DNA of 64,000 nucleotides from Psychrobacillus sp. NEAU-3TGS (lineage in GTDB: Bacteria; Bacillota; Bacilli; Bacillales_A; Planococcaceae): the NCBI RefSeq assembly GCF_029955155.1, contig NZ_JAPNOZ010000004.1:5599-69598 (forward strand), given 5' to 3'. Shown here in pieces: positions 32,892 to 37,865 of this stretch. The notes beneath the pieces were generated by a model. It was not told the origin of the DNA. It did no database searches and worked only from the letters and a program-made list of their open reading frames with translations. The position numbers and the translations under genes were made by a program. Each line of letters opens with the position of its first letter. Positions within the stretch are counted from its first letter, which is position 1.

Positions 32892-33692
32892 CTAATTTTT
32901 CTGTAGTTGTAGATTAGCTGATTTCACCTTAGAACGAGTGCTTCTATACCACTGATAACAGAGGATACAAACTAATCCTACCTCTATAGCATCCCCACCA
33001 TAATACATAATCATCCCACCCAATTCAGCCTGTACCGAGGATATACCATCAGGTGGATGTGCATAAAGATACTTGGACAATATGGAATGTGCCGCTAAAG
33101 CAATTAATAGTACTACAGAACGATAAATAAAGGATTTTCGTTGAGGAGTGGGATCAATATAAATAATGGATATAGTGAAAAGATAACCTGCCAAGAAAAT
33201 GTGAATGTGGATGAATGCATAAAGTACGACATTTTCATGCATCATTGGGAATAGTTCAGTTGTGTAAAGTAACCATAAAGCTCCGACGTTTATAATTGAA
33301 GTAAAAATAGGATTATGAAGGATATTAATTGGTCCACTACGTAAAATATATGAAAGCCGTCTCGCCGATTGAACAGGTAGGGTTCGTAAGAGAAGTGTCA
33401 TAGGAGCACCTAATGCCATGAAAAGTGGAGCAAGCATGCCAAGCAACAAATGACCAACCATATGTGCAGAAAAATCTTCATGAGAACGATCTGCTATTGG
33501 TCCAATGACCGATAAAGATGCACAAACCACACCAATTATCCATAAAACTACACGATAAAAAGGCCACTGTTTTTTCTTTCTATTAGAAATACTTACCGAC
33601 AGTAAATAACCTATTAAACCTAAAACAAAAGGTGATACCAATAGGATTTGGACAAGATCACTGATTTCATTAGAATGATTATGGGTATGCAT
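32892..33692 (-). CDS. CtaG-family cytochrome c oxidase assembly protein
   Basis: The 266-residue membrane protein has seven helices and the caa3_CtaG features: HNHSNEISDLVQIL at the start, HMVGHLLLGMLAPLFMALGAP (about 80-100) and YGGDAIEVGLVCILCYQWY at the end. His residues lie in membrane positions, as expected for copper delivery to caa3-type oxidase. The ATG at 33692 has GGAGGGAG eight bases upstream. It lies 18 bases after the DUF2243 gene and is surely cotranscribed. Confidence 0.88.
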   Translation of the reverse strand: MHTHNHSNEISDLVQILLVSPFVLGLIGYLLSVSISNRKKKQWPFYRVVLWIIGVVCASLSVIGPIADRSHEDFSAHMVGHLLLGMLAPLFMALGAPMTLLLRTLPVQSARRLSYILRSGPINILHNPIFTSIINVGALWLLYTTELFPMMHENVVLYAFIHIHIFLAGYLFTISIIYIDPTPQRKSFIYRSVVLLIALAAHSILSKYLYAHPPDGISSVQAELGGMIMYYGGDAIEVGLVCILCYQWYRSTRSKVKSANLQLQKN

Positions 33693-33710
33693 ATGTCCAA
33701 CTCCCTCCAA

Positions 33711-34163
33711 TCAACGTCGTGTTCGATTCAGTAAAACAAGACCTATAACAATCATAATAACAGCTGAAATATTCCATATTAAATCATATGGAACAATGTT
33801 GACATTATAGCGGATTTGATGGAGCCCCATTAGTTTATGCTGGATAATACCATCATAAAGTTGAAATACTCCGGCCCCCAACAATATGCCTCCAATCCAT
33901 CTCTTTAGCCAAAATGCATGCCGCCGGTGAAGGTCCGCCAACAAAAACGACGACCCAATTGTCGCAAAAAAGCTAAAAGCATGGAATAGACCATCCGAAA
34001 CCAGTCCAATATCCTTTGTAGATTTATCATAAAAATGGTGCCAATGCAGTAACTGATGAAATACAACTTCATCGATAAAAGCTATTAATCCAAAACCAAA
34101 TAAAATACCTGTCCACATATTTTGTTTTGCATAGATCAATTGATTATTCCTCTTGTCAGTCAT
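33711..34163 (-). CDS. DUF2243 membrane protein
   Basis: The 150-residue protein has four membrane helices with conserved His in FGLIAFIDEVVFHQLLHWHH (about residues 24-43) and LYDGIIQHKLMGLHQIRY (about 102-119). This is the DUF2243 family, often encoded beside CtaG, as here. A role in oxidase or copper handling is inferred from that pairing only. The ATG at 34163 has AGAGG five bases upstream; the longer frame lacks a site. Confidence 0.88.
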   Translation of the reverse strand: MTDKRNNQLIYAKQNMWTGILFGFGLIAFIDEVVFHQLLHWHHFYDKSTKDIGLVSDGLFHAFSFFATIGSSFLLADLHRRHAFWLKRWIGGILLGAGVFQLYDGIIQHKLMGLHQIRYNVNIVPYDLIWNISAVIMIVIGLVLLNRTRR

Positions 34164-34233: not shown

Positions 34234-34270
34234 GAAAAAAGTGAGAGAAAATGTATTTCCCTCACTTTTA
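34234..34270 (-). terminator. Terminator of the HTH/AtpD-like gene
   Basis: On the minus strand AAAGTGAG pairs with CTCACTTT and six T follow. It separates this gene from the DUF2243-CtaG pair. Confidence 0.8.
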
Positions 34271-34274
34271 CTTA

Positions 34275-35312
34275 TTATAGACTTCCTTTGTATGTTAGTT
34301 CTTTAACAGACATATGGTCCATTTTTCCTTCTAAAATAGATTCAACATCGGCAAGTGTTTGGGACATGGACACTGCTTTTCCTGCTTGACCGGTGAATGC
34401 TTCCGCCACAAAGAATGGTTGTGAGAAATAGGCTTCTAAACGCTCTCCTTTTTCATACGTCTCTAGTTCAGTATCTGGAATTTTATTAATCCCATGTACA
34501 ACTACAATAGAGCGCAATTCACGATAACGACGTAGAAGCTTTTGCGCACGTTGCCTTAAATTAAAATGACGTTCATCTAAATCGACACCTTCAATAATAG
34601 AAGATGTGGAATAGATAGGATGGATAGCTGGATAAAGATGACGCGTTGCAAGATCCGCATCCAATTGCCAAACAGTTTCCAAAGGACCATAAGGCATATC
34701 TTCATCTACCACTTCACCAGAAAGGTCTAATAAAATGGTTGTGATGTTATGAATACTTTCTGTCACCAATTTTTCTTGCAAATCTAAAAGCTCTCCAGAT
34801 ACTATATAACTCTTATCCGAAATAAATATAATATTCCCCGAAAGCTCTGCTAATTTAGCAAATGCTTCATCAACGGAGATCGCAACAAAGTCCGCTAACT
34901 CTGTTGTACCTTCTAACTCTCTATGCTCAGTAGTCGGCAATAAAAAAACGGTGGTGTAATCACTTTCTTTAAAACGATGCATCAACTCAGCAAGAATGAC
35001 AAGTTGCCCCATTCCTGGTCGAGCCACTAATCCTGTTGTTCCACCTTTTACTAGTGGTGCAAAGAAGTCCAATGCTTTAATTTGCGTTTCAATCATCTTT
35101 AATTTCTCCCCCCGTATGATTAATTCATCCACCGTACAGTTAGCGAGCGTCGCGAGACCTACAAGAGTCTTTACCTCTGCTTTACCTAAATCAATTTTTC
35201 CTGTACACAGATTGGATACTGTTGCAGGTCGAATCCCAATCGATTTTGCAGCAGTCGTTAAATTAGGTACTTTTCTTCTTAATAAAGCTACGTTTAACCG
35301 AATTTCATCCAT
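34275..35312 (-). CDS. HTH domain fused to an F1-ATPase beta-subunit-like domain
   Basis: The 345-residue protein joins two parts. Residues 1-68 form an XRE-like helix-turn-helix (TTAAKSIGIRPATVSNLCTG). Residues 75-345 align in order with AtpD after its N-terminal barrel: LDFFAPLVKGGTTGLVARPG (P-loop region, 81-100), YPAIHPIYSTSSI (227-239), LRRYRELRSIVVVHGINKI (260-278) and YFSQPFFVAEAFTGQAGKAV (295-314). The Walker A GGAGVGKT is replaced by VARPGMGQL, and the GER loop by TEH, so ATP hydrolysis is unlikely. It probably is a DNA-binding regulator with an AtpD-derived sensor or oligomerisation domain. GGAGGGGAG precedes the ATG; it has its own terminator. Confidence 0.88.
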   Translation of the reverse strand: MDEIRLNVALLRRKVPNLTTAAKSIGIRPATVSNLCTGKIDLGKAEVKTLVGLATLANCTVDELIIRGEKLKMIETQIKALDFFAPLVKGGTTGLVARPGMGQLVILAELMHRFKESDYTTVFLLPTTEHRELEGTTELADFVAISVDEAFAKLAELSGNIIFISDKSYIVSGELLDLQEKLVTESIHNITTILLDLSGEVVDEDMPYGPLETVWQLDADLATRHLYPAIHPIYSTSSIIEGVDLDERHFNLRQRAQKLLRRYRELRSIVVVHGINKIPDTELETYEKGERLEAYFSQPFFVAEAFTGQAGKAVSMSQTLADVESILEGKMDHMSVKELTYKGSL

Positions 35313-35327: not shown

Positions 35328-35386
35328 TTACTTTTAATAGTAAATTATTTTACTTTAAGAAGCAATATCTTTTCTTTTAAAAGTAA
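35328..35386. promoter_or_regulatory. Possible operator of the HTH/AtpD-like gene
   Basis: TTACTTTTAA (35328-35337) and its exact complement TTAAAAGTAA (35377-35386) flank a related TTTTACTTTAAG (35349-35360), all just upstream of the gene. They could be autoregulatory sites; this is an inference. Confidence 0.4.
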
Positions 35387-35409
35387 TTTTTTTTACGCTA
35401 AAATGATTT

Positions 35410-36135: not shown

Positions 36136-36711
36136 TTAAATAATTTGATCAATTATCCCGTAATTCATTGCTTCTTCTGCTGTCATAAAATAATCCCGGT
36201 CAGAATCAGTTGCAATTTTCTCGATTGTCTGTCCTGTTCTATCTGAAAAAATACGATTAATCCTTTCCTTCATCAAGAGAATTCGCCTAGCGCTAATTTC
36301 AATATCACTAGCTTGCCCTTGTGCGCCTCCAAGTGGCTGATGTATCATAATTTCACTATTCGGCAAGGCAAAACGTTTTCCTTTTGTACCTGCTACAAGT
36401 ATCGTAGCTCCAAAAGATGCTGCTAATCCAGTGCAAATCGTGCGTACATCCGGCTTAATGATTTGCATTGTATCATAAATTGCAAATCCAGCACTTACTG
36501 AACCACCAGGGCTGTTAATATATAAAGAAATATCTTTTTCCGGATCCTCTGCCTCTAAAAACAGCAGTTGCGCTACAATATTATTGGCAACTACATCATT
36601 TATTTCTGACCCTAAAAAAATAATCCGATCTTTTAATAATCGCGAATAAATATCATAAGAACGCTCCCCGCGACTTGTTTGCTCTACAACATACGGAATA
36701 AGATTAGACAT
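36136..36711 (-). CDS. clpP: ATP-dependent Clp protease proteolytic subunit (ClpP paralogue)
   Basis: The 191-residue serine protease has the catalytic triad Ser99 (GLAASFGA), His124 ([12 protein letters not shown]) and Asp173 (DSDRDYF), plus the Gly-rich [10 protein letters not shown] loop. It is close to B. subtilis ClpP but differs at usually fixed spots, such as AASFGA where the main ClpP has AASMGA, and [12 protein letters not shown] for the end. It therefore looks like a second ClpP rather than the housekeeping copy. It would form a tetradecamer fed by a Clp ATPase. No CtsR site is obvious; it follows a sigma-factor gene by 14 bases. Confidence 0.88.
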
Positions 36712-36725
36712 TCAAAATCCCCTTT

Positions 36726-37544
36726 CTATGCTACAGTCGAAAATTCCTTTTGCTTCAACCAAGCTATTTGCGATAATAATGCAGATAACTCTAATTGATA
36801 AAATGGAACGAAAAGGATTCCCCCATTTTTCTTTGGAATTGAGATAAGCACATAAGGAGTACTGCCACTCACAAAAGTATGAGCGATTGGGGATGAATGG
36901 ATACTGTACTGATCGCTTCTAGCATACATAGATGGTTCTTGTATTTCTTTTTGATATAGCCGTAGGACAGCATTTGAATTTTGATTACTTAAAGCAGTTA
37001 CATATGGCCATAAGTTATCTTCATCCAACTCGTAGGAATAGTCATGTATATTCACTTGTTTTAACTTTTTTCGCGCACGATGGAGGGTTGCTTTTATAGA
37101 TCCTTCACTATTAGAAAGCAAGCTTGCAGTTTCTTTAATCGTGTAATCGAATCCTAATACGAATAAAACTACCGCTCTTTGTTTAGCCGACAATTCGTTT
37201 AACAATACCATAATCGCCGGAAAAACTGACTCCATTTTAGGTCCATTTTCTTGTGCAAATTGAGATAAATCTTGACCCATGTCTTCCTCTATTTTTCGTT
37301 TACGGTGTTTATCAATCCATGTATTAGAAGCAATGCGGAACAAATATGCCTTAGCTATTTGCTTTGGAGTTTTCATCCAGCTTTCAAATGCCTTCGCTAA
37401 GGTCTCCTGCATTAAATCTTCCCCGTCCCACTTAGTTCTCGTTAGGGAAAAGCAATACTTCTTCAAATCGTGCATATAAGGCATAATTGCCATCTCAAAT
37501 TCTTCTGTTACTTCAATGGGAGTTTTTTCAACAAGCGGCCGCAT
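36726..37544 (-). CDS. Sigma-70 family RNA polymerase sigma factor with C-terminal extension
   Basis: The 272-residue protein has sigma region 2 (LKKYCFSLTRTKWDGEDLMQ and YLFRIASNTWIDKHRKRK, about residues 20-95) and region 4 (KQRAVVLFVLGFDYTIKETA then SEGSIKATLHRARKKLKQ, about 128-165). A further 100 residues follow (SIHSSPIAHTFVSGSTPYVL), with a strand-rich pattern of unknown fold. No anti-sigma gene is adjacent, so the extension may regulate it, as in ECF factors with C-terminal domains. The ATG at 37544 has GGAGGGG. The gene is 14 bases before the clpP-like gene, so they are probably one operon. Confidence 0.82.
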   Translation of the reverse strand: MRPLVEKTPIEVTEEFEMAIMPYMHDLKKYCFSLTRTKWDGEDLMQETLAKAFESWMKTPKQIAKAYLFRIASNTWIDKHRKRKIEEDMGQDLSQFAQENGPKMESVFPAIMVLLNELSAKQRAVVLFVLGFDYTIKETASLLSNSEGSIKATLHRARKKLKQVNIHDYSYELDEDNLWPYVTALSNQNSNAVLRLYQKEIQEPSMYARSDQYSIHSSPIAHTFVSGSTPYVLISIPKKNGGILFVPFYQLELSALLSQIAWLKQKEFSTVA

Positions 37545-37865
37545 GTTTTCCCCTCCTCCAAATTTGTCTTTCACTTATATAAACGAAAAAATTTATTGAA
37601 AAGGTACGGGTAAGGAAAAAGAATTATACTTTCTTTATTATTCCCGGTTCATATCGTGTGTTGGTCCTCCTTCGCAGCTCTTATCATTGAAAAATGGAAA
37701 AATGATCAACATTATAATGACCATGCAATACTTTGTTGATGATTGATAATTTGTTCAGCAACTAAAACGGGGCTATCTGTTAAGTGTCCATCATCCACTA
37801 ATGTGACGTACAGATACTATTGCAGTTCTTACGGCAGTATCAATGCAATGTTCTGTTTCACATCA

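Follow-up and report, generated by a model that had tools for sequence, protein, structure and literature searches.

The window, by which we mean the whole 64,000-nucleotide stretch of DNA analyzed here, carries on its minus strand a gene for a helix-turn-helix (HTH) domain fused to a degenerate F1-ATPase beta-like domain. A preliminary description had proposed this architecture; the open reading frame was confirmed at 34275-35312, and its two parts were assigned with Pfam, NCBIfam, and AF2 with Foldseek. The fusion is real and conserved, and the following features lie at its locus.

34275..35312, minus strand: coding sequence of the HTH-F1-beta fusion (ATG start, 345 amino acids, stop codon at 34275-34277; 66 distinct homologues)
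35115..35312, minus strand: predicted XRE/Cro-CI helix-turn-helix, residues 1-66 (Pfam HTH_26, AF2 and Foldseek)
Residues 28-39 of the same domain, minus strand: recognition-helix region RPATVSNLCTGK, in which R28, A30-L35, and T37-K39 are invariant in 64/64 homologues
34278..35105, minus strand: F1-ATPase-beta-derived, predicted pseudo-ATPase domain, residues 70-345 (Pfam, NCBIfam, alignment, Foldseek), with the P-loop equivalent at residues 97-104, the Walker-B Asp at 166, and the C-terminal helical domain from about residue 245
35328..35353, minus strand: candidate operator core GTAA-N6-TTAC-N8-GTAA, exact, ending 15 nucleotides before the start codon and conserved in homologues
35328..35396, minus strand: whole candidate operator array with a period of about 22 bp (26-mer matches with a TTGC half-site between them)
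35337..35365, minus strand: probable sigma-A promoter TTGCTT-N17-TACTAT inside the array (our own assignment)
34237..34269, minus strand: terminator-like stem-loop 3' of the fusion gene (14 pairs, T-tail)

The stem-loop is weak evidence taken alone, because one was found and 0.7 was expected in shuffled sequences; the fusion gene is probably a single-gene transcription unit. Genes for a DUF2243 membrane protein and the caa3 oxidase assembly factor CtaG lie downstream of the stem-loop on the same strand (window positions 32892-34163), and CtaG is found downstream in 4 of 46 loci (the window, L019, L020, and L021). A sigma-70-family factor with a C-terminal extension is also encoded in the window (36726-37574; Sigma70_r2 and r4 matches), and the adjoining reading frame (36136-36711) is presumably clpP-like.

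Domain architecture of the fusion protein

In the window protein, Pfam placed ATP-synt_ab at residues 78-135 (32.9 bits; cutoff, 29.5) and ATP-synt_VA_C at residues 245-319 (26.9 bits; cutoff, 24.7). Across a 27-member alignment, these models were matched by 27 and 26 members, respectively, at an E value of ≤0.01. The NCBIfam atpD model retrieved the fusion with an E value of 2e-35 and 122.5 bits, although its full-length cutoff (462.85) is far higher. A sequence search of solved structures at an E value of ≤1 gave 102 distinct matches; among the 60 listed, nearly all were beta subunits. Residues 70-345 are assigned to F1-beta on these matches.

The HTH_26 model matched residues 5-66 of the window protein with an E value of 0.0032 and 18.1 bits, which is under the curated 22-bit cutoff; 23 of the 27 aligned members matched it at an E value of ≤0.01 (best E value, 1.4e-5). 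An AF2 model of residues 1-72, built from nine sequences, reached a pLDDT of 84.5. The first Foldseek matches of this model were of the Cro/CI type (CylR2, a Prevotella XRE antitoxin, and P22 c2), with a best E value of 0.011 and no matches at ≤0.001. Searching the HTH alone against PDB sequences returned nothing credible. On the models, residues 1-66 look like a Cro/CI-type (XRE) HTH, with the multi-helix arrangement of XRE/Cro-CI regulators.

The full-length AF2 model, from the window protein and eight relatives (nine sequences), was poor (pLDDT, 65.3; pTM, 0.40) and was used for fold assignment only. AtpD ranked first among its Foldseek matches (E value, 2.8e-10; TM-score, 0.32). Because confidence in this model is low, no oligomer can be proposed from it.

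The preliminary description held that an HTH had replaced the N-terminal barrel of the beta subunit and that the rest of AtpD was kept in order. The first part stands, as homology to AtpD begins at about residue 70 and the HTH occupies the place of the barrel. The second needs correction: in an alignment with the AtpD of the same genome, about 50 further residues are absent, some in the region of the catalytic-Glu loop and some beyond Walker B. We take these gapped stretches to be the catalytic Glu (GER) and catch-loop segments. The claim that GER had become TEH falls within such a gap and cannot be asserted. The DELSEED-equivalent stretch is likewise not retained. Stretches such as RRYRELR and QPF.VAE survive in the C-terminal domain. 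The reported P-loop, VARPGMGQL, is correct and is conserved in homologues, in place of the Walker-A GGAGVGKT. The Walker-A Lys is replaced by Gln in all 64 full-length homologues, and the next residue is Leu, Val, or Phe instead of Thr, also in 64/64. With the catalytic loop gone as well, the expectation that catalytic features were lost is upheld.

Other positions are kept. The Walker-B D166 is Asp in 62/64 homologues, and Y227, which aligns with what we take to be the adenine-pocket beta Tyr345 of bovine F1, is Tyr or Phe in 64/64. Position 306, presumably corresponding to Phe424 of F1-beta, is aromatic in 54/64. Judged by its sequence, the beta-derived part is a conserved inactive form, a putative pseudo-ATPase, and not a product of random decay.

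The fusion is homologous to AtpD (TIGR01039) in its nucleotide-binding core and C-terminal domain and differs from it in the missing segments, the lost Walker-A Lys and Thr, and the location. A normal AtpD is present in the same genome (4.42 Mb in 16 contigs), encoded on contig C2; the fusion gene lies on contig C11, outside the atp operon. The F1-like ATPases of Mycoplasma (MSC_0618 and the MMOB1670 G1-ATPase), which appear in the same match lists, are also F1-beta relatives put to other use. The fusion scores 122.5 bits against atpD and 113 and 105.4 bits against the Mycoplasma F1-like models, and we know of no HTH in those ATPases. With XRE/Cro-CI regulators (HTH_26; CylR2, P22 c2, and the 434 repressor are among the structural matches), the fusion shares the predicted HTH fold; it differs from them in that its effector domain is derived from F1-beta and its candidate operator repeats about every 22 bp. 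The 14-bp 4-N6-4 palindrome over its own promoter has what we take to be 434-like geometry.

No Pfam, NCBIfam, PHROGs, or PADLOC model covers both the HTH and the F1-beta parts, and no description of an HTH-F1-beta fusion was found in the open-access literature. An article on Caryophanaceae signatures (PMC6971209) mentions ATP synthase subunit I and, without further specification, a "helix-turn-helix transcriptional regulator" (WP_108306939); the portions of that article considered here draw no link between an HTH and a beta subunit.

Conservation and distribution

Homologues were sought in genus, family, class, and phylum samples, which overlap. The genus sample gave matches in 16 of its 19 genomes (E value, ≤1e-25), the family sample in 55 of 250 (≤1e-40), and the class sample in 19 of 398 (≤1e-40), with 8 of these 19 belonging to the same family. 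A profile search of the phylum sample (≤1e-70) retrieved 3 of 398 genomes, one of which (G762) lies outside the class. From 97 sequences, two AtpD loci and one partial second copy (L058) were excluded, and the remaining 94 represent 66 distinct proteins. Both the HTH and the beta parts are present in 64 of the 66, each longer than 300 residues; when the homologues were collected and mapped, the HTH thus proved common to them, as the preliminary description had supposed. The two exceptions are an N-terminally truncated reading frame (G046) and a broken one that is cut off close to the end of its contig (G029). Named carriers include Paenisporosarcina, Planococcus, Oceanobacillus, and Cytobacillus, and the closest named homologue is a Psychrobacillus lasiicapitis protein (97% identical).

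Selection on the fusion is purifying, with a whole-protein dN/dS of 0.04 to 0.15 in all 10 chosen pairs. No part of the protein is better conserved than the HTH (mean pairwise identity, 0.80), whose dN/dS exceeds 0.033 in only one of the 10 pairs, the closest (0.106). Mean pairwise identity is 0.75 around the P-loop, 0.39 over residues 116-190, 0.71 over residues 191-240, and 0.59 at the C terminus. These values, together with the widely conserved operator and the 64 proteins above 300 residues, already contradict the idea that the gene is a decaying chimera without function, to which we give practically no credence. What could be cited for decay is the loss of the P-loop motif, the two broken or truncated homologues among 66, and a stop codon in a partial copy in genome G504. 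That copy (L143, G504:C23:15500-21360) is the second in its genome and has its own operator array; a full-length copy lies on another contig.

Long flanks were available for 46 loci and contain 580 ORFs; no neighbor is common to more than 10 of these loci. Shared neighbors are mostly genus bound, and gene order differs between genera at these loci. In a gene tree of 64 sequences, those from two genus g3 genomes fall within the g11 sequences (support, 0.99). Because gene order is not conserved and the g3 sequences nest in this way, the fusion unit has probably been transferred between lineages. A plasmid search gave 110 records; among the 10 listed, one is a true relative, annotated "hypothetical protein" and carried on a megaplasmid of Paenibacillus cellulositrophicus, and the other nine lack the HTH (seven are annotated atpD and two are unannotated). 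A phage search gave 19 records, and all 10 listed matches begin at residue 62 or later. Phage-labeled records, including OR846590, OR850173, OR845006, and MG065691, hold AtpD-like beta matches that perhaps represent bacterial contamination. PHROGs and PADLOC searches of the fusion gave no match.

The promoter array and its sites elsewhere

The conserved GTAA-N6-TTAC promoter array is new here. Within it, 26-mer matches lie at 35328-35353 and, with one mismatch, at 35371-35396. A scan of the whole window for the core with up to two mismatches gave four matches against 0.76 expected, a number reached by 2 of 100 shuffles. Conservation places a palindromic candidate operator at the fusion's own promoter: the exact core occurs in 54 of 65 regions upstream of fusion genes (Markov-shuffle expectation, 0.005) and lies 11 to 18 nucleotides from the start codon in 51 of 61 aligned upstream regions. 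Relative to the core in these 61 regions, GTAA is found within 1 nucleotide of -44 in 34, TTAC within 1 nucleotide of -34 in 40, GTAA within 1 nucleotide of -22 in 22, and TTGC at -12 in 48. The 22-bp period is pronounced at the core and relaxes in the upstream half-sites. Three genomes (G102, G116, and G556) have TTGAC at the place of TTGC. The TTGCTT-N17-TACTAT inside the array is a probable sigma-A promoter, judged from the sequence; a simple promoter consensus scan did not report the proposed -35 and -10, and by our reading TTGCTT falls under the threshold of that scan.

Of the 66 carrier genomes, 59 contain a longer, 38-nucleotide pattern (≤3 mismatches), and none contains its reversed control. 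Among these 59 genomes, the pattern stands at the fusion promoter in 56 and heads a gene pair or operon ending in the fusion in 3. Seven carriers lack it: the fusion gene is truncated in G046 and G029, lies at a contig edge in G247, and in G071, G138, G569, and G583 has an array that appears weaker by eye. The array is retained, with its last half-site degraded, in G762 and on the Paenibacillus megaplasmid. An exact, W-restricted form of the core was found in 41 of 60 carriers versus 5 of 60 non-carriers, and the non-carrier matches have unrelated spacers. In the genome of the window, the core with up to one mismatch gave 7 matches versus 10 for the reversed pattern; because the one-mismatch core is no more common than its reversed control, only exact or longer forms are informative. 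Three exact-core sites (G001:C78, G013:C1:101506, and G162:C32) were discarded as chance, as 60 genomes gave 3 such matches versus 8 reversed ones. The second of these falls inside an 808-residue ORF that we take to be parC.

The preliminary description spoke of an energy-linked regulator, and the array gives that link no support. A 17-kb region holding the whole atp operon of the same genome with its flanks (L106) contains no core with fewer than two mismatches, and no 38-nucleotide site was found at atp in the 66 carriers. The best core match at atp has two mismatches and looks like chance, and regulation of ATP synthase was rejected as a candidate role for lack of evidence.

Strong array sites are restricted to the fusion, M3b, and AmdA genes: the 38-nucleotide sites away from the fusion promoter in the 66 carriers head only genes for an M3b oligoendopeptidase or an AmdA-hydrolase-fusion run. 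The genome of the window has two exact core matches, one at the fusion promoter and the other before the M3 peptidase (an M3 oligoendopeptidase by TIGR02289 and Peptidase_M3). This genome (contig C16) is one of four Psychrobacillus genomes in which the array precedes an M3b gene that is unlinked to the fusion. In G102 and G116, the order is array, M3b, and fusion, with M3b in line with the fusion gene, which in G116 runs off the contig. At an E value of ≤1e-160, M3b was found in 6 of the 250 genomes of the family sample; each of these carries the fusion, and in each the array (≤3 mismatches) ends within 30 nucleotides of the M3b start. M3b is a separate type, 40 to 45% identical to the widespread M3 paralogue. 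The universal-type M3 served as a control, and the 25 loci covered, out of 44 matches, all have at least 6 mismatches to the array after strand correction. The recurrence of the M3b link both in trans and in line is our best evidence that the array has the fusion as its binding partner. M3b is a probable regulated partner gene. The M3b of the window's own genome (L104:6175-7668; G000:C16:59174-60667) has an in-frame TAG about 65 codons short of the end of its relatives and may therefore be shortened or inactive; the M3b reading frame is also interrupted in G102. In G556 (L144:9018-11922), the array is followed by an acetamidase/formamidase-like gene, an alpha/beta hydrolase gene, and then the fusion gene, a run that possibly hints at an amide-type signal.

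Proposed function of the fusion protein

The proposal that the protein is a DNA-binding regulator gains backing from the conserved array and the small candidate regulon. We consider it likely that the fusion is an autoregulating XRE repressor whose regulon is small and whose oligomerization or ligand domain was recruited from F1-beta. As a one-component transcriptional regulator, it would bind through its N-terminal XRE-type HTH to 14-bp GTAA-N6-TTAC palindromes spaced about 22 bp apart over its own -35 and -10. Since 22 bp corresponds to two helical turns, the sites would lie on one face of the DNA, and such phasing of dimers suits a second domain that multimerizes as beta subunits do. Binding across the promoter would most likely repress the fusion gene; repression is favored because the sites overlie the -35 and -10, and it is their position that points to a repressor over an activator. 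The F1-beta remnant, its catalysis lost, would serve oligomerization and signal binding, making array binding cooperative and relievable. We infer, in short, a protein that binds the array, acts as a repressor, is oligomeric, and senses a ligand. Its regulon would be tiny: usually only itself, the M3 oligoendopeptidase in some genomes, and the acetamidase/hydrolase operon in one. A regulator that controls only itself in most genomes is odd. Some relieving ligand would be expected, and the substrates or products of M3b or the amidase (peptides and amides) are as plausible in this role as nucleotides.

One version of this explanation, with which its probability overlaps, casts the protein as an energy-charge sensor in which ATP or ADP, held by the retained base pocket and Walker-B Asp, switches DNA binding. 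The conservation of Y227 (Tyr/Phe in 64/64), D166 (Asp in 62/64), and the aromatic position 306 (54/64) fits such a sensor; however, with Gln for the Walker-A Lys and Leu, Val, or Phe for the next Thr in 64/64, the catalytic loop gone, and no operator found at atp, we regard it as unlikely. A different reading confines the HTH to setting the protein's own level and has the beta-like domain act on another protein, such as the host F1-ATPase or its assembly. That the fusion promoter is the sole 38-nucleotide site in most carriers would fit, as would the retained RRYRELR and QPF.VAE stretches and the patchy presence, varied location, and gene-tree mixing, which suggest a portable single-gene unit. 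Yet the fusion lacks the beta-barrel that forms the F1 crown, has not kept the DELSEED equivalent, and drew no PADLOC match, and the operator is also placed ahead of M3b and the AmdA operon, as would be expected for a regulator; we judge this reading rather improbable. Slightly more doubtful still is an elaborate arrangement in which the beta domain assembles an F1-like ring or ring segment, six HTHs sit on three phased operators, and an adenine nucleotide or related metabolite in the base pocket switches assembly.

If the autoregulating repressor is confirmed, the fusion would represent a new type of regulator in bacteria and would show clearly how a catalytic subunit of F1-ATPase came to serve a transcription factor as its signal domain. 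Should the ring arrangement prove true, a rotary-ATPase subunit would have been turned into an allosteric, DNA-bound metabolite switch. The fusion would come with an operator already in place, a few candidate target genes, and natural variants by the dozen for testing, and it gives genes labeled hypothetical a testable role. It may also provide a direct route to asking what a beta subunit can sense after catalysis is lost.
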